DNA from: a virus
Length of the DNA stretch: 36,231 nucleotides
Reading direction: 5' to 3' (one strand)
IMG/VR virus record: IMGVR_UViG_3300033149_006882
Coordinates: 1-36,231 of that record
Shown: in pieces, positions 3,490-26,504 of the stretch
Position numbering within the stretch: the stretch's first letter is position 1
How the letters are laid out: every line of letters starts with the position of its first letter
Notes under the pieces: generated by a model
Database searches by the model: none
What the model was told of the DNA's origin: nothing
Seen by the model: only the letters and a program-made list of their open reading frames with translations
Translations under genes and position numbers: made by a program

Positions 3490-4200
3490 GTGGTCAAGTT
3501 TTATTTTTTGGGAAAAGGGAATATTTACCAAAAGCACAAGGAAGCTATAGAGTTTTTGGCTTGTCAGGAGGTCAAGGATTGGAAGGAAGCGGATTGGGTT
3601 GTTGTTTTGACCCCGAATTATCTCCATTTTAAGCAGGCTCTTAGGTTTGCCAAGAAGGGGAAAAAGGTTTTGGTGGAAAAGCCTTTGTGCTTTAGGGAGA
3701 AAGAGGTCGAGGTTTTGGAGAAATATCCCGTTTACTGCGTGCTCCAGCTCAGGTATTTGGATTTGGATGTAGAACCAGCGGATTATTACGATATTTGGGC
3801 GGAATTGTCTTTTAAAAGGAAAAAAAGCTATTTTGAGGGCTGGAAAGGGCAGGAGAAAAAGACTGGGGGCTTGCTGTTCCACCTCGGAATCCATTATCTA
3901 GATTATGTTTTTAACAGGTTTGGCTGGCCTAGGAAGTGGGAGGTTAAGGGTTTGGGGCCGAAAGAGGCTGAGATAGAGTTTTTTGGGAGGAAATACAGGT
4001 TTTATTTCCATTTAAAATCTGGGGCCAAACGCAATATCAGGATTATTTCCGTTAACAGCAGGCCGTATTCCTGGCTGGCGGAGAGAAATCTTTTTATTGA
4101 CCTTTACGGCGATATTTTGGACAAAAAGGGGATACACGCCTCCAGAGTAAAAAAACTAATAAATATATTGGAAAATTGTGCCTTATTTAAAAGCTGTTAA
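3490..4200 (+). CDS. Gfo/Idh/MocA oxidoreductase, WlbA/WbpB-like UDP-sugar 3-oxidase
   Basis: This 236-residue protein starts with GTG at 3490. Residues 5-16 (Tyr-Phe-Leu-Gly-Lys-Gly-Asn-Ile-Tyr-Gln-Lys-His) are the dinucleotide-binding GxG..H motif. TPNYLHF (41-47) and VLVEKPL (60-66) are the family signatures. GGLLFHLGIHYLDYV (126-140) is the catalytic GG...G.H..D block. The tail (LKSGAKRNI, then DLYGDILDKKGIHASRVKKL) matches the WlbA/WbpB ending. That subfamily oxidises C3 of UDP-GlcNAc-uronic acid with NAD, before transamination by the DegT enzyme, which overlaps this gene by 23 bases. It is short: usual members have about 310-350 residues. The shortening lies between the EKP and GG motifs. 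Confidence 0.8.
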   Translation: MVKFYFLGKGNIYQKHKEAIEFLACQEVKDWKEADWVVVLTPNYLHFKQALRFAKKGKKVLVEKPLCFREKEVEVLEKYPVYCVLQLRYLDLDVEPADYYDIWAELSFKRKKSYFEGWKGQEKKTGGLLFHLGIHYLDYVFNRFGWPRKWEVKGLGPKEAEIEFFGRKYRFYFHLKSGAKRNIRIISVNSRPYSWLAERNLFIDLYGDILDKKGIHASRVKKLINILENCALFKSC

Positions 4201-5092
4201 AAGGGTCTTAAAGAGCGAAAAATACATTTTGGGGCCAGAAGTGGAAAGGTTTGAAAAAGAGCTTGCCCGTTTTTGCAAGAAGGAATACGCTGTTGGGGTG
4301 AATTCTGGGACGGACGCCCTTGTTCTTTCCCTTAAAAGTTTGGGCATAGGCCCTGGGGACGAGGTTATAACCACTCCGTTTACTTTTGTGTCTCCTGCCG
4401 AGGCGATAGCGAGGGTTGGGGCAAAGCCCGTGTTCGTTGACATAAACTATTCCGATTTCCTGATAAATCCAGCTGAAATAGAGAAAAACATAACCGAGAA
4501 TACCAAAGCCGTAATTCCCGTCCATTTGTTCCACCAGTTGTGCGATATGAAGGAGATTATGCGCATAGCCCGAAAATACCATTTATGGGTTGTGGAGGAT
4601 GCTGCTCAGGCCTTTGGGCGGAAGGATTTGGGCCAAGGTCATTTGCTCTGTTTTTCTTTCCATCCGTCCAAAGCCCTGGGAGGCATAGGCGACGGCGGAG
4701 CTGTGCTGACCGACATAAAGAAGCTGGCGGACAAAATTAAGAGCCTCAGGAACCACGGAGCGGACTTAAAACTTGGTCCTATTGGCAAGTATCACAACCT
4801 TGAAATAGGGTTCAATTCAAGGCTGGACTCCATACAAGCGGCTGTTTTAAGGGAAAAGCTTAAAAATTTCAAGAAAAAGCCGTTTAAACGGCTTTGGACG
4901 TTCAGGACGCCTAATAGGGACTTGGTGAAGGAATATTTGGACAAAAAAGGGATAGACAACAAAATATTTTACAACAAGCTTCTCCACCTTGTTCCCTGTT
5001 TTAAATATCTTGGGTATAAAAAAGGGGATTTCCCTGTAGCGGAAAAAGTGGCGAAAGAGGTTTTAAGCGTTAACATTTACGAAAAATATTAA
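4178..5092 (+). CDS. DegT/DnrJ/EryC1 aminotransferase, WbpE/WlbC-like
   Basis: This 304-residue PLP enzyme starts at GTG 4178 inside the preceding oxidoreductase gene. NSGTDAL (42-48) binds the PLP phosphate, VVEDAAQAFG (138-147) supplies the Asp that contacts the pyridine nitrogen, and SFHPSKALGGIGDGG (160-174) carries the Schiff-base lysine (K165). NSRLDSIQAAVLREKL is the family dimer motif. It would add an amino group to the 3-keto sugar made by its neighbour. Usual length is 360-380. About 50 residues are missing after REKLKNF, where the chain jumps to FRTPNRDLVKEYLDKKGI, so this is a compact variant. It ends one base before terL. Confidence 0.85.
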   Translation: MPYLKAVKRVLKSEKYILGPEVERFEKELARFCKKEYAVGVNSGTDALVLSLKSLGIGPGDEVITTPFTFVSPAEAIARVGAKPVFVDINYSDFLINPAEIEKNITENTKAVIPVHLFHQLCDMKEIMRIARKYHLWVVEDAAQAFGRKDLGQGHLLCFSFHPSKALGGIGDGGAVLTDIKKLADKIKSLRNHGADLKLGPIGKYHNLEIGFNSRLDSIQAAVLREKLKNFKKKPFKRLWTFRTPNRDLVKEYLDKKGIDNKIFYNKLLHLVPCFKYLGYKKGDFPVAEKVAKEVLSVNIYEKY

Positions 5093-10577: not shown

Positions 10578-10642
10578 CCTTGTGGTGTCGTCTGTCGGGA
10601 GAAACTTGCCTCGTTTTCTCCTGACGACGAGGCAAGGCGACA
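10578..10642 (+). promoter_or_regulatory. Large hairpin / possible H-type pseudoknot after the capsid gene
   Basis: Bases 10588-10604 pair with 10615-10630 to make about 16 bp (one G-U, one bulged T) around a 10-base loop. The loop holds CTTGCCTCG (10605-10613), perfectly complementary to CGAGGCAAG (10628-10636), so the loop can pair downstream of the stem as a pseudoknot. CCTTG (10578-10582) can also extend the stem with CAAGG (10633-10637). No T run follows, so it is not a classical terminator. It may stabilise capsid mRNA or limit readthrough into the glycosyltransferases. Confidence 0.65.
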
Positions 10643-10650
10643 AAGTAGTT

Positions 10651-11538
10651 ATGAAAATAGTTTATTTCGCAAACACCAAAAACAAAAAATACCAATTTGT
10701 AAAAGACATCCAAAAAGGTCTTTCACAGCTCAATTATCAGGTTGTTTTATTGCCAGAGGACACTCCGCTGGAAAAGATAAAGAAAGAGTGCGAAAATGCG
10801 GATTTGTTCCTGTTTCACGAAGGAGGGGTTAAGACAGAAACAGAGTTTGACTTTCAGCTGACCTGCGCCAGGCTTCAAAACATACTTGACAATATAAAGT
10901 GCAAAAAGGTTTTCTGGTTTCCCCATTTGGTTATAGGTTTGGGAAACAGCTGGATGGAGCAGATAATTCCTTTTGTGGATTACGGGTTTTTGACAGACGG
11001 GCATTTTGTCAGAAGGCACAAATACGATAACCTGTTCCATTTGCCCATTAGCTGTTTGGAAGGGAAAAAAGGGAAAGAAAGGCAAGAGTTCAAAACAGAC
11101 ATTGCCTTTGTCGGCTCCCTTTTTCCAGAAAGGGAATTGTTTGTAAATCTCCTTAAAAAGAGATATGGGCACAAGGTAAAGGTTTTTCAGGACTTGTATG
11201 GGCAGGATTTTTACGACCTGTGCCAATCTGCCAAGATAGTTGTTTATTCCCCGTTTCCTTATAAGGATTATTACTGGACAGACGCCCTTTACCGAGGGCT
11301 TGCGGGAGAAGCGTTTATTGTTTTTCCCAAACTGGAAGGGCTGAAAGAGGAAGGATTTGTCAACGGTTTCCACTACATAACCTACAGCGATAAGGAAGAG
11401 TTGTTTTTGGCGGTAGATTATTACCTTGAAAAGCCAAAAGAAAGGAAAATAATAGCAAGCCAGGGCAAGGAATTTGTTCTGGAAAATTACGAAATAAAAC
11501 AACAACTTAAAAAAATAACAGAAAAATTATGGACATAG
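10651..11538 (+). CDS. Glycosyltransferase, CgeB-like / GT-B
   Basis: A 295-residue protein. I chose ATG 10651 (MKIVYFANTKNKKYQFVKDI); the frame is open to 10582 but that part is the hairpin region. The Rossmann-like N-half is followed by FVGSLFPERE (about 150) and the C-half SAKIVVYSPFPYKDYYWTDALYRGLAGEAFIVF, typical of CgeB or GT1-like nucleotide-sugar sites. TYSDKEELFLAVDYYLEKPKERKIIASQGKEFVLENY is the usual C-terminal ending of such enzymes. It would act on the host envelope glycan or on virion proteins. It is first in a four-gene glycosyltransferase row. Confidence 0.75.
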   Translation: MKIVYFANTKNKKYQFVKDIQKGLSQLNYQVVLLPEDTPLEKIKKECENADLFLFHEGGVKTETEFDFQLTCARLQNILDNIKCKKVFWFPHLVIGLGNSWMEQIIPFVDYGFLTDGHFVRRHKYDNLFHLPISCLEGKKGKERQEFKTDIAFVGSLFPERELFVNLLKKRYGHKVKVFQDLYGQDFYDLCQSAKIVVYSPFPYKDYYWTDALYRGLAGEAFIVFPKLEGLKEEGFVNGFHYITYSDKEELFLAVDYYLEKPKERKIIASQGKEFVLENYEIKQQLKKITEKLWT

Positions 11539-12392
11539 CATTTAGATGTTCTTTGTCAGTCATAAATTTCAAAGACAAAATTAAAAAGGTCTGGGGGTTG
11601 AGAGAATGGATTGGGGCGGACGACCCAGCCGAATATGTTTTGTTCTTCGGCTTGTATACCCAGCACGATTACGACGCTTGGTGGTATTTGCCAGAAAACA
11701 AAAAAAGAATGGTTTTCTGGTGCGGGTCGGACATTTTAAACACCCTGGACAATCCAGAATTCCAAAGAAGGTTAAAGTTGTTTCCAAAAGCCAAACATTT
11801 CTGCGAGACAGAAGCAGAGGCGGAGAATTTAAGGAAAATGGGCATAAAGCCAAAAGTGGTTCCTTCTTTTTTAGAGGACGAAGATTCTTTCCCGTTAACC
11901 TACAAGCATTCTGAAACGCCTCATATCTGGATGTGCGCTCATCCGCAGAGAGAAAGAGAATATGGAGTGGATATTATACTGAGAATGGCTAAGAAGTTCC
12001 CAGATTACAAGTTCCACATTTACGGCATTTACGACTGGAAGGAGGAAGAAAAGCCAGACAATGTGATATACCACGGACAGGTGTCAAACGAAAGGTTTAA
12101 TATGGAGATAAGGAACTATCAGTGCGGATTTAGAGGAAACCTGCACGACGGATTGTCGGAAGTTCCAGTAAAAGCGGTTCTTATGGGGCAATACGCCATA
12201 ACGAGGATGAAATTTCCGTGGTTCTGGCACTTTGAGACGGAGGAGGAGTTGGAGAAACTTTTGGCCAAGCTGAAGGATATGAAAGACTGGAACAGAAAAG
12301 GGAGAAAAGCGTTAAAAGGTCAACTTAACAATTTTCCTTGGTGCAGGGAAAATTTAGTAGAGGCAATTAAAACCTTATGGAGGGAAGGTTAA
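11529..12392 (+). CDS. Glycosyltransferase, GT4-like (GT-B)
   Basis: A 287-residue protein overlapping the previous gene by 10 bases. FWCGSDILNT (about 63) is the first-domain loop seen in GT4-like enzymes. HPQREREYGVDIILRMAKKFPDYKFHIYG then NVIYHGQVSNERFNMEIRNYQCGFRGNLHDGLSEVPVKAVLMGQYAI matches the second-domain donor site (G.v....m...~...l..~.~~~g~p..~~EA~~~G.~vI). The nucleotide sugar used is unknown. It is compact relative to the usual 350 or more residues. Confidence 0.75.
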   Translation: MDIAFRCSLSVINFKDKIKKVWGLREWIGADDPAEYVLFFGLYTQHDYDAWWYLPENKKRMVFWCGSDILNTLDNPEFQRRLKLFPKAKHFCETEAEAENLRKMGIKPKVVPSFLEDEDSFPLTYKHSETPHIWMCAHPQREREYGVDIILRMAKKFPDYKFHIYGIYDWKEEEKPDNVIYHGQVSNERFNMEIRNYQCGFRGNLHDGLSEVPVKAVLMGQYAITRMKFPWFWHFETEEELEKLLAKLKDMKDWNRKGRKALKGQLNNFPWCRENLVEAIKTLWREG

Positions 12393-12399
12393 AAAATTT

Positions 12400-13182
12400 A
12401 TGAAAAAAATACTTCATTTCATTTATATTCCTCTTACAGGGCTTGGGATAGTGGAATACAAAGGGGACGAATGGTTTGCTTATAGAGTAGAGTTGTTTAA
12501 AAGATTTGTTCTTCCATCTTTAAAAAACCAACAGGACAAGGATTTTATTCTCTGGATTTCTTTTAGACCCCAAGAAAAAGACAACCCTGTAACAAAAAAA
12601 CTGGAAAACTATATTAAAAAAGCTGGCTTGAGATATATTTTCACCTTTCACGGCATTGCTATGAAGGACGACAGAGGTGTTTGGCACAATGCCACTTTGC
12701 CCCAAAGAATGGAAAAAATGCTGAAAGAAATCCAAGACCAGACAGAAAAAGCGGAGTGGGTTTACAAGACAGATTTGGGGTCGGACGATATGTTTTCAGA
12801 AGAAGCGATAAAAGAAATAAAAGAAATAAATCCGCAGGAATACGAGGCGGGATATTTTATAAACGGATACGCTTTGCACTTTCCCACAATGACATTGGCA
12901 GAGTGGAACAGGCCGACATCCTGTTCAAAATATACCGTGATTTATCCATACGACACATTTTTCAACGCAGAAAAGCATTTATACCACATAAAAGACCTGA
13001 CAACCCACGAGATAATTCCCACTATTTACAAAGCGTTTAAACTTCCAGACAGAAGGTATATGGCTGGAATTCACAAGGGAAACATATCAACCCATTGGAA
13101 CCATCCTTTTAAGGGAAGGGAATTAAAAGGTCAAGAAAAACAAGAAGTTCTTAAAAAATTTGGCTTATCTCATTTACTATGA
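12400..13182 (+). CDS. Glycosyltransferase, rhamnosyltransferase-like (GT-A)
   Basis: A 260-residue protein. LHFIYIPLTGLG, then RVELFKRFVLPSLKNQQDKDFILWISFRPQEK resembles putative rhamnosyltransferases (family type PF11316: R..LF..~tlPSL..Q.d.~F.w.~). KTDLGSDDMFSEEAIKEI (about 121-138) looks like the DxD region that binds Mg-nucleotide sugar. HKGNISTHWNH (about 224) may be the acceptor side. The stop overlaps the next ATG (ATGA). The donor assignment is tentative. Confidence 0.65.
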   Translation: MKKILHFIYIPLTGLGIVEYKGDEWFAYRVELFKRFVLPSLKNQQDKDFILWISFRPQEKDNPVTKKLENYIKKAGLRYIFTFHGIAMKDDRGVWHNATLPQRMEKMLKEIQDQTEKAEWVYKTDLGSDDMFSEEAIKEIKEINPQEYEAGYFINGYALHFPTMTLAEWNRPTSCSKYTVIYPYDTFFNAEKHLYHIKDLTTHEIIPTIYKAFKLPDRRYMAGIHKGNISTHWNHPFKGRELKGQEKQEVLKKFGLSHLL

Positions 13183-13880
13183 GTTTAAAAAAGAAAGGCA
13201 TTTATATCGCAGTTTTAAACCAAGGGGCGGTTCACCCGACAATTTCCGCTTTTACAAGCCAAGCTATGTTAAACCAGAAATACAATGTTTTGGTGACCTA
13301 TCCCTGCGAAAAACCAATATCTTATAACAGAAACAAGATAGTGCACGATTTTTTGCAGAGGAAGGAAAAATTTGATTATTTGATGATGATTGACGATGAT
13401 ATTTTGCCGCCTCAAGATATGGATTTAATAGAGTTGGCGGATTACGATAAAGACATTATCACCCCGCTTATGTTCATTTACCAGCAGGACTCTGTAGTTC
13501 CTTTAATAGGCGTTAAATCGCAAGAGGGTATGTATAACATTATGGGAGCAAGCGGGAAGGAAGGGTTAATAGAAGTGGACGGGGTAGGAACGGGTTGTAT
13601 TATTATTAAAAGGGAAGTCTTGGAACATCCGCACCTACGGGCTCCATTTCTGAACGAGTATGACAAAGACGGGTTTAAAAAATTTGGCTTGGACTTTGCT
13701 TTTTCCAGAAGGGCAAAGGAAGCTGGGTTCAAGTGTTGGGTTCATTTGGACTATGTCTGCGGACACAGGGTAAAAGTGGATTTAAAAGAGATATACAAAG
13801 CGTTAAGCCAAAGAGAACTTATAATAGAGCGGCTTTACGCCGAGAATAAAAAACTAAAACAATTAAAAGAAGGAAAATGA
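13179..13880 (+). CDS. Glycosyltransferase, GT2-like (GT-A)
   Basis: A 233-residue protein with DYLMMIDDDILPP (about 66-78), the DxD catalytic loop of GT-A enzymes. GVGTGCIIIKREVLEHP (about 125-141) follows, a pattern common to GT2 proteins of this length in phages. FGLDFAFSRRAKEAGFKCWVHLDYVCGHR (about 167) is the conserved ED.~fs.~~~~~G....~d~...~~H~ region. A short coiled coil ends the protein. Stop overlaps the neck-protein ATG, so it is cotranslated with virion genes. Confidence 0.8.
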   Translation: MSLKKKGIYIAVLNQGAVHPTISAFTSQAMLNQKYNVLVTYPCEKPISYNRNKIVHDFLQRKEKFDYLMMIDDDILPPQDMDLIELADYDKDIITPLMFIYQQDSVVPLIGVKSQEGMYNIMGASGKEGLIEVDGVGTGCIIIKREVLEHPHLRAPFLNEYDKDGFKKFGLDFAFSRRAKEAGFKCWVHLDYVCGHRVKVDLKEIYKALSQRELIIERLYAENKKLKQLKEGK

Positions 13881-14634: not shown

Positions 14635-15102
14635 ATGAAATTAACAGGTTATATAAATCTTAGAGGTTATGGTATTATCCGCCATTTTCGCAATGGAAAG
14701 CTGGTTTCAGAACAGAAATTTACCAACACTATTACCGAAAGCGGCATTAGAAGGGTTGCTGGGTTGATAAATGGAGAAGAAACAACCGCTTTTTCCTATC
14801 TCCAGTTGGGAACTTCTGGAACTCAAGCCAGTTCCACAGATACTGCTCTGCTTTCTCCTATTACCGCTGGTTCTCTTGCGCCTACGGCGGCTACTACTTC
14901 CCAGATTACCACAGATACGACAGATGATACTGCTTACTTTGTCAAAAGCTGGTCTGCTACCGCTTCTTACACAGTAAAGGAAATCGCAATCGGCACTTCT
15001 GCTACCGCTCCGACTATTTTGTGCCGAACTACAAACTTTACTGCTGTCGGGCTTACGGATGGAGACTCAGTCTCAATATACTATAAGATTGACGTCGATT
15101 GA
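14635..15102 (+). CDS. Tail-associated structural protein
   Basis: A 155-residue Thr/Ser/Ala-rich beta protein. VSEQKFTNTITESGIRRVAGLINGEE then FSYLQLGTSGTQASSTDTALLSPI matches a common phage fibre-region protein (N.vt~~G...va~~i.g...~~~~y~~~GtG.t~~~~~dtaL). It lies between neck and fibre genes. Probably a minor tail or fibre-attachment component. Its GAAAGG sequence just upstream is a reasonable ribosome site. Confidence 0.65.
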   Translation: MKLTGYINLRGYGIIRHFRNGKLVSEQKFTNTITESGIRRVAGLINGEETTAFSYLQLGTSGTQASSTDTALLSPITAGSLAPTAATTSQITTDTTDDTAYFVKSWSATASYTVKEIAIGTSATAPTILCRTTNFTAVGLTDGDSVSIYYKIDVD

Positions 15103-15190: not shown

Positions 15191-15919
15191 ATGGCCGATA
15201 AAAAAATATCAGAATTAACAGAGTTGACCGAGGCAGAAGCCAGCGATTCTTTTGCTGTTGTTGACGCTTCGGTTTCTAAAACAAAAAAAATCACATATTC
15301 CAATTTGGTCGGTGGAGCAAGTAAAACTGAATTGAGTTATTTGAGTGGAGTTAGTTCTAACATCCAAAACCAATTGGACGCAAAAGCAGATATAGCGGAC
15401 TCAGAAACAATAACAGGTTCTTGGATTTTTAATAGCCCGATTAGATACGATTCTGGCAGAAGCATTACAGACCTTTATCATTTGGTTGACAAAAAATATG
15501 TGGACGAGGCGGTAACCTCATTAGGAGCGAGATATTATATGCTTGATACCGATTCTGGAGAAGCAGATTATAAATTGTGCTCCCTTACTCCTTCGGCAGG
15601 AGCGGAACAGAATGTTAGCAAAAACAGCTTAACAGATGACCAATACATTATCGGTTGGATTAGTCCCAATACAAATGAGCCAGACAAACTAATAGCAGGA
15701 GTATACAACTGGCGAATTTTTGCCGAAAAAACAGGCGGCACAAAAACATTAAGATTATATTGGAAGTTAGTTGAACGAAAGAACGATGATTCAGAGGTTG
15801 TTATTGGAACTTCTGCTGTTAGCGACGAAATAACAACTGGCAAAAGTTCATACATTATCCCTTTAACTTTATCAGCAGACCACGATATAGCAAGCGATTA
15901 TCAGCAGACCACGATATAG
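15191..15919 (+). CDS. Tail fibre, N-terminal part (frame broken by 29-bp duplication)
   Basis: This 242-residue frame begins MADKKISELTELTEAEASDS, a familiar phage-fibre start (KISeLt..~...~~d.~~vvd...tkKit~~~l) that attaches to the virion. LVDKKYVDEAVTSLGARYYM and the Thr/Asn-rich beta segments are shaft-like. It stops after SADHDIASDYQQTTI because of a 29-base tandem duplication at 15869-15927. Removing one repeat unit joins it in frame with 15958-16362 to give 380 residues. So this is the 5' piece of one gene, in the off state or mutated in this assembly. Confidence 0.8.
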   Translation: MADKKISELTELTEAEASDSFAVVDASVSKTKKITYSNLVGGASKTELSYLSGVSSNIQNQLDAKADIADSETITGSWIFNSPIRYDSGRSITDLYHLVDKKYVDEAVTSLGARYYMLDTDSGEADYKLCSLTPSAGAEQNVSKNSLTDDQYIIGWISPNTNEPDKLIAGVYNWRIFAEKTGGTKTLRLYWKLVERKNDDSEVVIGTSAVSDEITTGKSSYIIPLTLSADHDIASDYQQTTI

Positions 15920-15927
15920 CAAGCGAT
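15869..15927 (+). repeat. 29-bp tandem duplication inside the fibre gene
   Basis: The 30-base string starting TTATCAGCAGACC occurs at 15869-15898 and again at 15898-15927, a period of 29. As 29 is not a multiple of three, the fibre gene is shifted out of frame. Everything before and after fits one frame if a single copy is present. Slipped-strand loss or gain would switch the gene on and off. An assembly artefact is the main alternative. Confidence 0.85.
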
Positions 15928-15957
15928 AGTTATGTTGTTGGGAAAATTTATGCAGAT

Positions 15958-16362
15958 GTGTCTGGGTCAGGGAATGCTCCAAGTGTTACTTTATATTACG
16001 AGGGCGATTCAGATTGTCATTGGGAGATTCCAGTTAATACGGAAATACTTGATAATTCTTATGTTAATGTTACTGGAGACACAATGACAGGAACGCTTAA
16101 TCTGCCTTCTAACGGGCTTGTGGTAGGAACAAACCAGCTTGTTGCTTCTGGCGGCAGTATCGGCATTGGGGAATCTTCTCCCGACTCCGCCGCTTTATTA
16201 GAATTGAGTTCTACGACAAAGGGATTTTTACCGCCACGGATGACAACTACACAGAGGGACGCTATATCAAATCCGCCAGCTGGTCTTATGATTTACAATA
16301 CCACTACTAACAAACTGAATTTTTACAATGGAACGGCGTGGGAAGAAGTAACGAGCTCTTAA
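15958..16362 (+). CDS. Tail fibre, C-terminal part
   Basis: A 134-residue frame, GTG start possible at 15958 but more likely the 3' half of the 15191 gene. DNSYVNVTGDTMTGTLNLPSN is a fibre repeat motif (T.~G.~~tG~l). SSPDSAALLELSSTTKGFLPPRMTTTQRDAISNPPAGLMIYNTTTNKLNFYNGTAWEEV is the well-known fibre/tailspike ending with a small receptor-facing domain. Alone it would lack the virion-binding end, so it is probably not a functional separate protein. Confidence 0.8.
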   Translation: MSGSGNAPSVTLYYEGDSDCHWEIPVNTEILDNSYVNVTGDTMTGTLNLPSNGLVVGTNQLVASGGSIGIGESSPDSAALLELSSTTKGFLPPRMTTTQRDAISNPPAGLMIYNTTTNKLNFYNGTAWEEVTSS

Positions 16363-16412: not shown

Positions 16413-18092
16413 ATGTGGCTATCAGGATGGGCAAAAAGAAAAAAGATAACGATAGATTCTTCCAAGATAGATTCTGACTCTGACACAGACAAAAAGAAAG
16501 TTGCTTTTACAAAAGCAGACGGGACGACTCAACTTTACGCCGAGATAGAACAGTTTGATGCTACTAACCAGAAAGCGGTTTACTGGGTTTCTAAATCCGA
16601 TTGGGTTATTAGCAGTTCTTCTGATACAGAATTTTATGTTTATTATGATAGCAGTCAATCGGATAACACGACTTATATTGGAGACACCCCAGGTTCTGCT
16701 CCTGCGACGAATGTATGGGATAGCAATTATCAAGGAGTGTGGCATCATAGTCAAAGTCCAACAGGAAATATTTTAGATAGTTCTTCTAACGGTAGAGATT
16801 TAACTTCTTCTGGTTCAATGACTTCGGACGATTTGGTAGATGGAAAAATAGCAAAAGGTTTAGATTTTGACGGGACGGATGATGTTTTATATCGGTCTTC
16901 GGGTTCAGTGGGATTAGCCAATGCTTGGACCGTAGAGCATATTTTTAAAGGAGATACTTGGAGCGGAAGTCAATTCTTATTTAGTTTAAGGCCATCGTCA
17001 GGAGTGGCAAATGGCATAGATATTCAGAATGGTACTTATAATTATGAGATTGAATTTTTTGATTCTAACGGTTCTACTATTAAAGATTACGCAAGAAATT
17101 CTGCTTTTTCTACTGGAACTTGGTATGTTCTTACTGTTACTTGGGACGGAACAAATCTTAAAATTTATGTCAATGGAACAGAAGATACAAATATTAACAA
17201 AAGAACAGATGGCAGTGGTTCCCAAACTTCAACTGATAGAATTATTAGTTTATGGGCAAGATATACCACAAGTCAATATTATTTTGATGGAATTGGAGAT
17301 GAGGTAAGATTATCATCAACTGCCCGTTCCGCCGCTTGGATAAAAGCATCTTACAATTCAGGAAATAATACTTTGTTAACTTTTGGGAGTGAGGAGACAG
17401 GGACTATTACAATTTCTGTTTCTGAAACTATTGCTTTGACAGATAGTATTTCAAGAAATTTCTCTCTTAAAAAGATTCTTTCTGAAACAATAAATCTTAT
17501 AGACAGCATTGACAAACGAATAGAGTTCAAAAGAGTTTTGTCGGACATTGTTTCCTTGACAGACACAATAACCAAGAAAATCAATTTTAGGAGATTTCTT
17601 TCTCAAACCATTACCTTAACAGACAGCGTTTTAACAAAAGTTCTTGGGGTAACCAGAATTATGCTTTCTGAAACCATAAAGCTGACAGACACGATTGCGA
17701 GAAATACTGTTGTTAGCCGTCTTATTCAGGAAACCATAAAGCTGACAGACACGGTTTCTACAAAAATTGCTGGAGCTTACCAAATTGTTGTTTCAGAAAC
17801 CATAAAACTGACAGATTCTCTCAACAAGCATTTCAAAGTAAGCGTCAGAGTAATAGAAAGCATAACCCTTACTCCTGTTATTAGCGTAACCCGCAGGGCG
17901 TGGTATTGGGCTAAAAAACATATTCCATCTTGGTCTTTTAGAAATAAAAATGTAATTTATTTATTGCAAGAAGACAGCTCTAAAATACTTCAAGAGGACG
18001 GCGGAGGGATTTTATCATCTTCTTCAACCCCCTCTTGGTCATTTGGGAGTAAGTCTTCTTCTCCCACCTGGAAGTGGAAGAATAAACCTTAA
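16413..18092 (+). CDS. Tail fibre/adhesin: DUF2341 + LamG lectin + repeats
   Basis: A 559-residue protein. The start WLSGWAKRKKITID and TEFYVYYDSSQSDNT match DUF2341, here without its FPV section. Residues about 100-325 form a LamG/concanavalin-like lectin domain (GKGLDFDGTDDVL, TVEHIFKGDTWSGSQFLFS, WYVLTVTWDGTNLKIYVNG, YFDGIGDEVRLSSTARS). About residues 330-490 are eight copies of a beta-strand repeat with the core SETIKLTDT. The C-terminus is Trp/Ser rich. It is probably the sugar-binding adhesin that recognises the host surface. An ATG at 16402 in another frame gives only 15 codons. Confidence 0.8.
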   Translation: MWLSGWAKRKKITIDSSKIDSDSDTDKKKVAFTKADGTTQLYAEIEQFDATNQKAVYWVSKSDWVISSSSDTEFYVYYDSSQSDNTTYIGDTPGSAPATNVWDSNYQGVWHHSQSPTGNILDSSSNGRDLTSSGSMTSDDLVDGKIAKGLDFDGTDDVLYRSSGSVGLANAWTVEHIFKGDTWSGSQFLFSLRPSSGVANGIDIQNGTYNYEIEFFDSNGSTIKDYARNSAFSTGTWYVLTVTWDGTNLKIYVNGTEDTNINKRTDGSGSQTSTDRIISLWARYTTSQYYFDGIGDEVRLSSTARSAAWIKASYNSGNNTLLTFGSEETGTITISVSETIALTDSISRNFSLKKILSETINLIDSIDKRIEFKRVLSDIVSLTDTITKKINFRRFLSQTITLTDSVLTKVLGVTRIMLSETIKLTDTIARNTVVSRLIQETIKLTDTVSTKIAGAYQIVVSETIKLTDSLNKHFKVSVRVIESITLTPVISVTRRAWYWAKKHIPSWSFRNKNVIYLLQEDSSKILQEDGGGILSSSSTPSWSFGSKSSSPTWKWKNKP

Positions 18093-24578: not shown

Positions 24579-25057
24579 ATGCTTTTAAAAAGATAGCTCT
24601 AATAGGGCTATCGTTGCTGGTCGGCCTTTGGGCAACGCCTATTGGAGCTCCCCAGTTAAAAACAAGCGAAATCCCTAAATTGCCCTTTAGAAGCGAGATA
24701 TATCTGGAAGGGTATCATTTTACCTTTTTTCCTAAAATACGGCTCTACGGGGCTATTAGCGGGGAAATACGCCGTTTTCAATGGCTTGTCTGGCGCAAAT
24801 ATCCAGATATGGCAGACTTATTGCTGTGTATGGCCGAGAAAGAAAGCGGGTTTAACCCAAATGCAATAGGAGACAGAGGCCTTGCCAAAGGCATATACCA
24901 GATACACACAGACAAACACCCTATAAGCGACCAATGCGCCTTTGAGCCTGAATGCGCTTTGGATTATACAGCAAAACTAATAAAGGAAGGGAAAGGTTAT
25001 TTGTGGACAACCTATTCCCTCTGTCAGGCTTATGGACATTCAGCAGGAAGTTTTTGA
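24579..25057 (+). CDS. Lytic transglycosylase (SLT-like endolysin), -1 frameshift needed
   Basis: ATG 24579 follows the holin stop by one base but meets TAG after five codons (MLLKR). A -1 slip on T-TTA-AAA (24584-24590) enters the long frame and gives 159 residues: MLLK then KIALIGLSLLVGLWATPIGA, a good signal peptide, and an SLT domain. Its motif is LLLCMAEKESGFNPNAIGDRGLAKGIYQIH, with E89 the likely catalytic acid and the GLAKGIYQI substrate strand. Cys residues may form disulphides outside the membrane. Without frameshifting only a TTG at 24614, inside the signal, could start it. It cleaves peptidoglycan glycan strands. The frameshift may instead be a missing A in a homopolymer. Confidence 0.75.
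24584..24612 (+). promoter_or_regulatory. Candidate -1 frameshift signal
   Basis: T-TTA-AAA (24584-24590) is a canonical X-XXY-YYZ slippery heptamer in the frame of ATG 24579. One base later GATAGCTC (24592-24599) pairs with GGGCTATC (24605-24612), eight pairs with one G-U, loop TAATA. The stem contains the zero-frame TAG stop. The spacer is shorter than the usual 5-9 bases. Confidence 0.55.
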
Positions 25058-25373
25058 GTTTGACATTGGAAAACAAAATATCAAAAAACAACTTGGTTTT
25101 ATGTTGGATTTGGTGGAAGCTATCGGGCTGACGCCAGTCGGGATAACCACGAGAATATATCCCTTAAAAGACGGAAGCGGGGGAAACGGGGTGACAGCCA
25201 CGGTAGAGTTTGTGGAAAGCTATGCCGTGTTGGACACTTGGCCAGAGCTGAATTATGCCCATCTAAACATAACTTCTTGTAAAAGGTTTTCTGTTAAAAA
25301 GGTGAAAGAACAGATAAAAAAACATTTCAAGAGTAAAAAGATAAGGCACATACGGGTGTTTAAAAGGTCGTAG
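25032..25373 (+). CDS. SpeD-like pyruvoyl decarboxylase homologue
   Basis: A 113-residue protein of the S-adenosylmethionine decarboxylase (SpeD) family size. VESYAVLDTWPELNYAHLNITSC (61-83) aligns with the family core ESHisiHTWPE.gYAa.Di~tC. S63 (pyruvoyl serine) and C83 fall at the same numbers as in the Thermotoga enzyme. However H68, needed for self-cleavage, is D68, and H64 is Y64. So it may be inactive in AdoMet decarboxylation, or have another substrate, as SpeD relatives acting on arginine or ornithine are known. It starts inside the endolysin gene (26-base overlap). The product would feed polyamine synthesis, helping DNA packaging. The C-terminal tail is basic. Confidence 0.7.
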   Translation: MDIQQEVFEFDIGKQNIKKQLGFMLDLVEAIGLTPVGITTRIYPLKDGSGGNGVTATVEFVESYAVLDTWPELNYAHLNITSCKRFSVKKVKEQIKKHFKSKKIRHIRVFKRS

Positions 25374-25717: not shown

Positions 25718-25828
25718 ATGGCGAAAACCGTAAAAAATAATTTGACACTTAATCAGCAGCAATCCGCAGTTGTTTATGGGTTTCTTTACGGTTTCCCCGC
25801 CAGACGACTGCGGATTTTTGCTTATTAG
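25718..25828 (+). CDS. 36-aa leader peptide of the replication gene
   Basis: ATG 25718 to TAG 25826-25828 encodes MAKTVKNNLTLNQQQSAVVY and then GFLYGFPARRLRIFAY. Its coding sequence contains both arms of two interleaved 10-bp helices (25725-25816). Its stop overlaps the AGGAG ribosome site (25827-25831) of the rep gene. This arrangement is like leader peptides that control plasmid replication genes by translational coupling. Translation of the ORF would open one helix and let the other form. Confidence 0.55.
   Translation: MAKTVKNNLTLNQQQSAVVYGFLYGFPARRLRIFAY
25725..25819 (+). promoter_or_regulatory. Leader RNA: two interleaved 10-bp helices and terminator-like end
   Basis: Helix A: AAACCGTAAA (25725-25734) with TTTACGGTTT (25785-25794). 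Helix B: AATCCGCAGT (25761-25770) with ACTGCGGATT (25807-25816), followed by three more T. The order A-B-A'-B' makes a pseudoknot if both form, or a switch between them. Helix B plus T5 is an attenuator-like terminator. Both stems are perfect. Confidence 0.7.
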
Positions 25829-25838
25829 GAGTAAATTT

Positions 25839-26504
25839 ATGGCCATACCAAACACAACACCAACGCCAAATATAATCTTTAATGGGTTAATGGCAAAAAT
25901 GTCAGATACAGAGTTTAGGGTAGTAATGGTTGTAGTGAGGGCTACTCTTGGTTGGGAAATAGACCATAAAACAGGAATGAGAAAGAAAGAAGATTGGATT
26001 TCACACCGCCAGTTAATTGAGAAAACGGGACGAAGTGGAAGAGCTATTTCTACAGCAATTGATAGTTGTATAAAAAAGGGATGGATAGAAGCACGAGATG
26101 AAAAAGGAAATTTATTAGATGTTAAGGAAAAAAGAGTGGGTAAGAAAATATTTTATAGATTGGGAAAGGAAATTTTACTTAAAGATGATGGAGAAGAAAT
26201 TTTAGTTAAAGAATATAAACCTCTGAAAAAAGTTCAGAGGCTTGAAACAACCTCTGAAAAAAGTTCAATTGAAAAAAGTTCAATTGAAAAAAGTTCAGTA
26301 TACAAAAGAAAAACTATTACAAAAGAAAAACTATTACAAAATAATAATATATATATAAATAATTTAAAAAAATATCAAAATTTAAAAAAAGAGTTCTTAA
26401 AGGGTAAAGATTGGGACAATCCTTTTAGAAGAACCCAGGCTCAAGAAGAAGCGGCCGCTGAAATAAGACCCAGCGGGCGTTCAAAAGGTCGTGGCAATAT
26501 TTAA
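25839..26504 (+). CDS. RepO-like replication initiator
   Basis: A 221-residue protein. ATG 25839 has AGGAG seven bases upstream; the TTG at 25770 in the same frame lies inside the leader structure and is rejected. PNIIFNGLMAKMSDTEFRVVMVVVRATLGWEIDHKTG (about 10-47), then WISHRQLIEKTGRSGRAISTAIDSCIKKGWIEA (about 54-86), is the winged-helix region of phage lambda O-like initiators (N..f~~Lm..ls.tE.~v~~~i.R.T~Gw.....~iS.~ql...tG). The middle of the gene carries iterons and an AT-rich stretch, the likely origin. No helicase loader or polymerase follows, so host replication proteins would be recruited. Confidence 0.8.
   Translation: MAIPNTTPTPNIIFNGLMAKMSDTEFRVVMVVVRATLGWEIDHKTGMRKKEDWISHRQLIEKTGRSGRAISTAIDSCIKKGWIEARDEKGNLLDVKEKRVGKKIFYRLGKEILLKDDGEEILVKEYKPLKKVQRLETTSEKSSIEKSSIEKSSVYKRKTITKEKLLQNNNIYINNLKKYQNLKKEFLKGKDWDNPFRRTQAQEEAAAEIRPSGRSKGRGNI
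26220..26390 (+). other. Candidate replication origin inside rep: iterons and AT-rich stretch
   Basis: Core TGAAAAAAGTTCA occurs at 26224-26236, 26255-26267, 26270-26282 and 26285-26297 (spacings 31, 15, 15). The first copy lies in a perfect 8-bp inverted repeat (CCTCTGAA 26220-26227 / TTCAGAGG 26233-26240). Downstream a 17-base unit ending ACTATTAC is repeated at 26304-26320 and 26321-26337. An almost pure A/T stretch follows (26338-26390, with a run ATATATATA). This is the lambda ori layout: iterons in the initiator gene beside a DNA-unwinding region. Confidence 0.7.

Follow-up and report, generated by a model that had tools for sequence, protein, structure and literature searches.

Does a tail fibre gene that carries a perfect tandem duplication mark a phase switch, or a gene that has simply been broken? 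This question is raised by a 36,231-base virus record (hereafter, the window, meaning the whole stretch of DNA), which we analysed from its sequence. A first-pass annotation of this DNA had proposed that slippage between one and two copies of a short segment turns a receptor-binding protein on and off.

A 29-bp duplication splits a tail fibre gene

The sequence TTATCAGCAGACCACGATATAGCAAGCGA occurs twice in the window, head to tail and on the plus strand, at 15869-15897 and 15898-15926. The two copies are 100% identical. The next base, 15927 (T), also matches, so that direct comparison of the copies and this base bears out the annotated 30-base string with a period of 29. Across 20 Markov-1 random sequences of equal length, perfect tandem matches reached at most 15 bases, compared with 30 in the window. 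The repeat pair is far beyond random expectation and is not explained by chance. Its period sets it apart as well: 1.29 Mb of other phage contigs contain 16 perfect tandem duplications (period 15-120), every one of which has a period that is a multiple of three. An out-of-frame period of 29 is thus an unusual kind of perfect tandem duplication among phage contigs.

The additional 29 bp shift the reading frame. With two copies, the fibre ORF (15191-15919, plus strand, 242 aa) stops at 15919, as annotated, and ends in six out-of-frame residues, YQQTTI, and a TAG codon at 15917-15919. The remainder of the gene (15927-16362, plus strand) lies in the -1 frame relative to the upstream ORF and encodes the rest of a fibre module and a C-terminal tail-fibre domain. 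This frame is open to 16362, with zero stops between 15820 and 16360. Positions 15191-16362 minus 29 bases amount to 381 codons (380 residues and a stop), which confirms the arithmetic behind the continuous 380-residue gene that had been predicted for the one-copy form. The tail-fibre identity is also supported, since the C-terminal part matches phrog_30742 ('tail fiber protein', E 3e-8) and the N-terminus is common to genes of many phage contigs. Near the beginning of the downstream remainder, GTG at 15958 is the only start codon, and no ribosome-binding site is evident for it; separate translation of the C-terminal piece was rejected on these grounds.

Because the one-copy form has a boundary microhomology of only 1 nt, the change from one to two copies would represent an illegitimate event rather than slippage of a repeat tract. 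Predicted folding at the duplication site is no more stable than that of shuffled sequences (z about -0.5), and we rejected hairpin-driven slippage. Conserved third positions are densest in a stretch overlapping the 29-bp unit (0.64 versus a mean of 0.47). The signal is a weak one, many of the positions concerned vary in several relatives, and a special nucleotide constraint on the unit was likewise rejected.

The duplication lies in a mosaic jelly-roll-like module

The middle of the fibre gene (15446-16090, plus strand) encodes a module of ~200 residues that is common to several phages. We identified it in 16 other contigs (L002, L003, L005, L006, L007, L008, L009, L084, L086, L171, L174 and L176-L180), many of which come from one run of metagenome numbers. 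In the contigs that we read through, the module is attached to differing N- and C-terminal parts and thus constitutes a mosaic fibre module. It has zero matches among PDB sequences, zero PHROG matches and no Pfam match that reaches the cut-off.

An AlphaFold model predicts a jelly-roll-like sandwich, with confidence over much of residues 60-190. A structure search with this model returned jelly-roll matches, the best of which (Z 13.2) was to PaL. Next came the C-terminal jelly roll of the cocaine-esterase (CocE) type, so that the model aligns with jelly-roll domains of CocE-type hydrolases at Z up to 13.2, and carbohydrate-binding modules, which aligned less well. Matches to a predicted model of this sort indicate a fold and not a function; a carbohydrate-binding role for the module is plausible. 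The duplicated segment falls in the loop between predicted strands 142-150 and 160-171, and the truncated product would therefore be missing three strands at the end of the module together with the entire C-terminus.

Relatives carry a single copy

All 16 of the other module carriers, which are not close strains, have one copy of the segment, and in alignment with it the window shows 29 surplus bases. The second copy is thus derived and unique to the window record. The module is open throughout in 14 of these 16 carriers. Sequence comparison therefore upholds the annotated view that the gene is intact with one copy, and indicates that this form is ancestral.

We also scanned for frame breaks by comparison with translated neighbours. 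Homologues in 28 records back the break in the window, and the scan found no further one in the aligned coding DNA of this record. Two other module carriers have well-supported breaks, a 71-nt deletion in L009 (at L009:5165-5212) and a 23-nt deletion in L180 (at L180:3147-3203), both at sites other than that of the window's duplication. An apparent second frame break lies farther downstream in L180. The few remaining flags, each from a single query, trace to the duplicated frame of the window itself or to a single isolated pair, and ~105 kb of aligned coding DNA showed no clear break outside the broken module carriers. This clustering of breaks in the module (P about 0.001) is suggestive, in a calculation that is post hoc and biased by loci having been collected through this very module.

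Three further contigs (L182, L184 and L185) end inside the fibre module, and one of them is filed as a Woesearchaeota genome bin. Three such ends among 20 module-bearing contigs exceed the 0.47 that would be expected (P about 0.01 in a post hoc calculation), suggesting that the locus is hard to assemble.

The split gene looks accessory

Fibre-like genes flank the split gene. The upstream gene (14635-15102, plus strand) is assigned to phrog_4176 (tail fiber) and is conserved in L164-L166, the nearest relatives of the window phage by capsid protein. These relatives share 54% capsid identity, the best capsid match that we obtained, and no near-identical record of the same phage was found in a search from which very near records may have been withheld. 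The downstream structural gene (16413-18092, plus strand) encodes a Laminin_G_3 domain and repeated 'SETIALTDSI'-type motifs, and its product is possibly a second adhesin. The repeated motifs ('SETIxLTDSI') recur in variant form in two L166 proteins.

In L164-L166 the next gene after the homologue of the upstream gene is another adhesin-like one, and the fibre is missing between the two. The adhesin-like gene of L166 starts 20 bases after this homologue, and the C-terminus of its product resembles that of the 16413-18092 product. As the nearest capsid relatives lack the gene, the split fibre looks accessory and its loss is likely tolerated; from these gene orders, the gene looks dispensable. 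The flanking fibre-like genes and the absence of the split gene from these relatives are consistent with infection through another tail protein. Calling the fibre 'the receptor-binding protein', as the annotation did, is too strong for a gene that is accessory and missing from the nearest capsid relatives.

Other features of the record

In and beside its structural region (3490-5092 and 10582-13880), the phage has a gene resembling those of sugar oxidoreductases, one for a DegT-type aminotransferase and several that resemble glycosyltransferase genes; those at 10582-13880 are conserved in L164-L166. A short gene at 25032-25373 encodes an S-adenosylmethionine decarboxylase domain. Positions 26255-26341, within a gene for a Phage_rep_O-domain protein (25770-26504) and next to an A/T-rich stretch, contain a 15-base repeat in three near-perfect copies and after it a 17-base repeat in 2.4 copies. 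Judged by sequence, this arrangement looks like the iterons of a lambda-O-type replication origin inside the initiator gene.

Origin of the split gene

We favour the explanation, to which we assign a probability of about 0.6, that a fresh, non-programmed 29-bp duplication has inactivated an accessory fibre in a phage that stays viable through its other tail proteins. A chance, one-off tandem duplication would have arisen in the fibre gene and truncated its product inside the jelly-roll module, leaving the C-terminal, receptor-facing part untranslated, or nearly so. Adsorption would most likely continue via other fibre or tip proteins, as in laboratory lambda without stf. Deletion of one of the perfect adjacent copies would restore the gene, and such reversion is probable at a low rate. 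We infer all three elements of this explanation, namely the presence of the duplication in the real genome, an inactive fibre and continued viability of the phage.

An assembly or library artefact is a possible but distinctly less probable source of the second copy. The phage would then carry one copy, and the contig would have been mis-joined at a short sequence common to related fibre modules of the community. Such sequences exist, as part of the 29-bp unit is exactly matched in phages whose modules are just ~75% identical (38 bases in L002 and 29 in L003; an exact 25-mer occurs once in each). The three contigs that end within the module and the two other carriers with out-of-frame indels in it also point in this direction. 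However, a tandem junction requires spanning reads, whereas tangles in an assembly graph would alone yield chimeras or breaks, and no other break was seen in the window. Identity to relatives is unchanged across the junction, each relative being about equally identical on both sides, and we rejected a chimera at this point. An entirely different possibility is that the gene is not broken at all and that ribosomes bypass the duplication. A slippery heptamer, CCCTTTA, lies shortly upstream of the duplication in the right frame (15859-15865), and a -1 slip there would enter the stop-free frame and extend translation to the end of the fibre, adding about ten residues that differ from the normal sequence. 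We regard this as very improbable. None of nine aligned relatives has the heptamer, which is probably a coincidence for that reason; we estimate a probability of ~10% that the usable stretch would contain a heptamer of this kind by chance, and the relatives require no shift.

The proposed phase switch, in which the copy number slips reversibly between one and two and the fibre is thereby turned on or off within a population, is very unlikely. The one-copy frame is exactly intact, and perfect adjacent copies could in principle drop one. Slipped-strand contingency loci in bacterial surface genes consist of short tandem repeats with several units, which are slip-prone in both states. The window fibre resembles them in that its frame depends on repeat number, but its ancestral state is repeat-free: the one-copy form offers just the 1-nt microhomology, repeat number does not vary among the 16 relatives (single copy in each, in carriers that are not close strains), and the hairpin at the site is not significant. 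Pfam scans of the main window ORFs detected no recombinase, invertase or reverse transcriptase of the kind that drives an enzymatic switch or a diversity-generating retroelement, although an enzyme could act in trans, and inverted repeats around the fibre gene are limited to a single weak pair. A literature term search for slipped-strand fibre switching in phages gave no paper that combined all terms. The deletions in L009 and L180 lie elsewhere in the gene and are unrelated, which fits a dispensable gene that is being lost, or faulty assembly, rather than a dedicated switch site. These same lesions could be read more broadly, as uncultured phages repeatedly and revertibly switching the module off by small out-of-frame indels, with on and off populations coexisting. 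This reading is based on three of 17 carriers being broken by three different lesions while the other aligned genes have no clear break, and we consider it similarly improbable. Nothing points to an evolved two-way switch.

Relation to known fibre losses and switches

The closest parallel to a one-off inactivation is the side tail fibre gene stf of the laboratory phage lambda PaPa, which a frameshift has split into ORF401 and ORF314 (PMC9659904, PMC10721106, citing Hendrix and Duda 1992). Lambda with a split stf still infects via another tail protein, and the intact form is present in its ancestor (PMC9659904, PMC10721106). In the window record, too, a frame-shifting lesion divides an accessory fibre gene whose ancestral form is intact and whose homologues in relatives are unbroken in most cases. 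In contrast to the window record, the lambda lesion is of laboratory origin and is not described in these papers as a 29-bp tandem duplication. The two genes also belong to different fibre families, and viability and a second receptor-binding protein are presumed for the window phage.

Fibre switches that operate by DNA inversion are known from Gin of Mu, Cin of P1, Min and the Rin shufflon of bifidophages (PMC6109161). A switch in the window would resemble these systems in that a fibre gene would change within a phage population. The inversion systems, however, rely on a recombinase that swaps alternative ends, whereas the window has a direct duplication, no recombinase that we could find and no alternative end.

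On the favoured reading, the split fibre would be a loss like that of lambda stf; the first-pass annotation described the locus correctly and over-read its mechanism. The case also warns against inferring a switch from a split fibre gene in a viral metagenome record until intact relatives, and reads, have been consulted. For work on fibre mosaicism among uncultured phages, the common module offers a helpful starting point. If real, the duplication would represent a wild counterpart of laboratory lambda, in which a phage loses a side fibre in one frame-shifting event and retains a simple way back.
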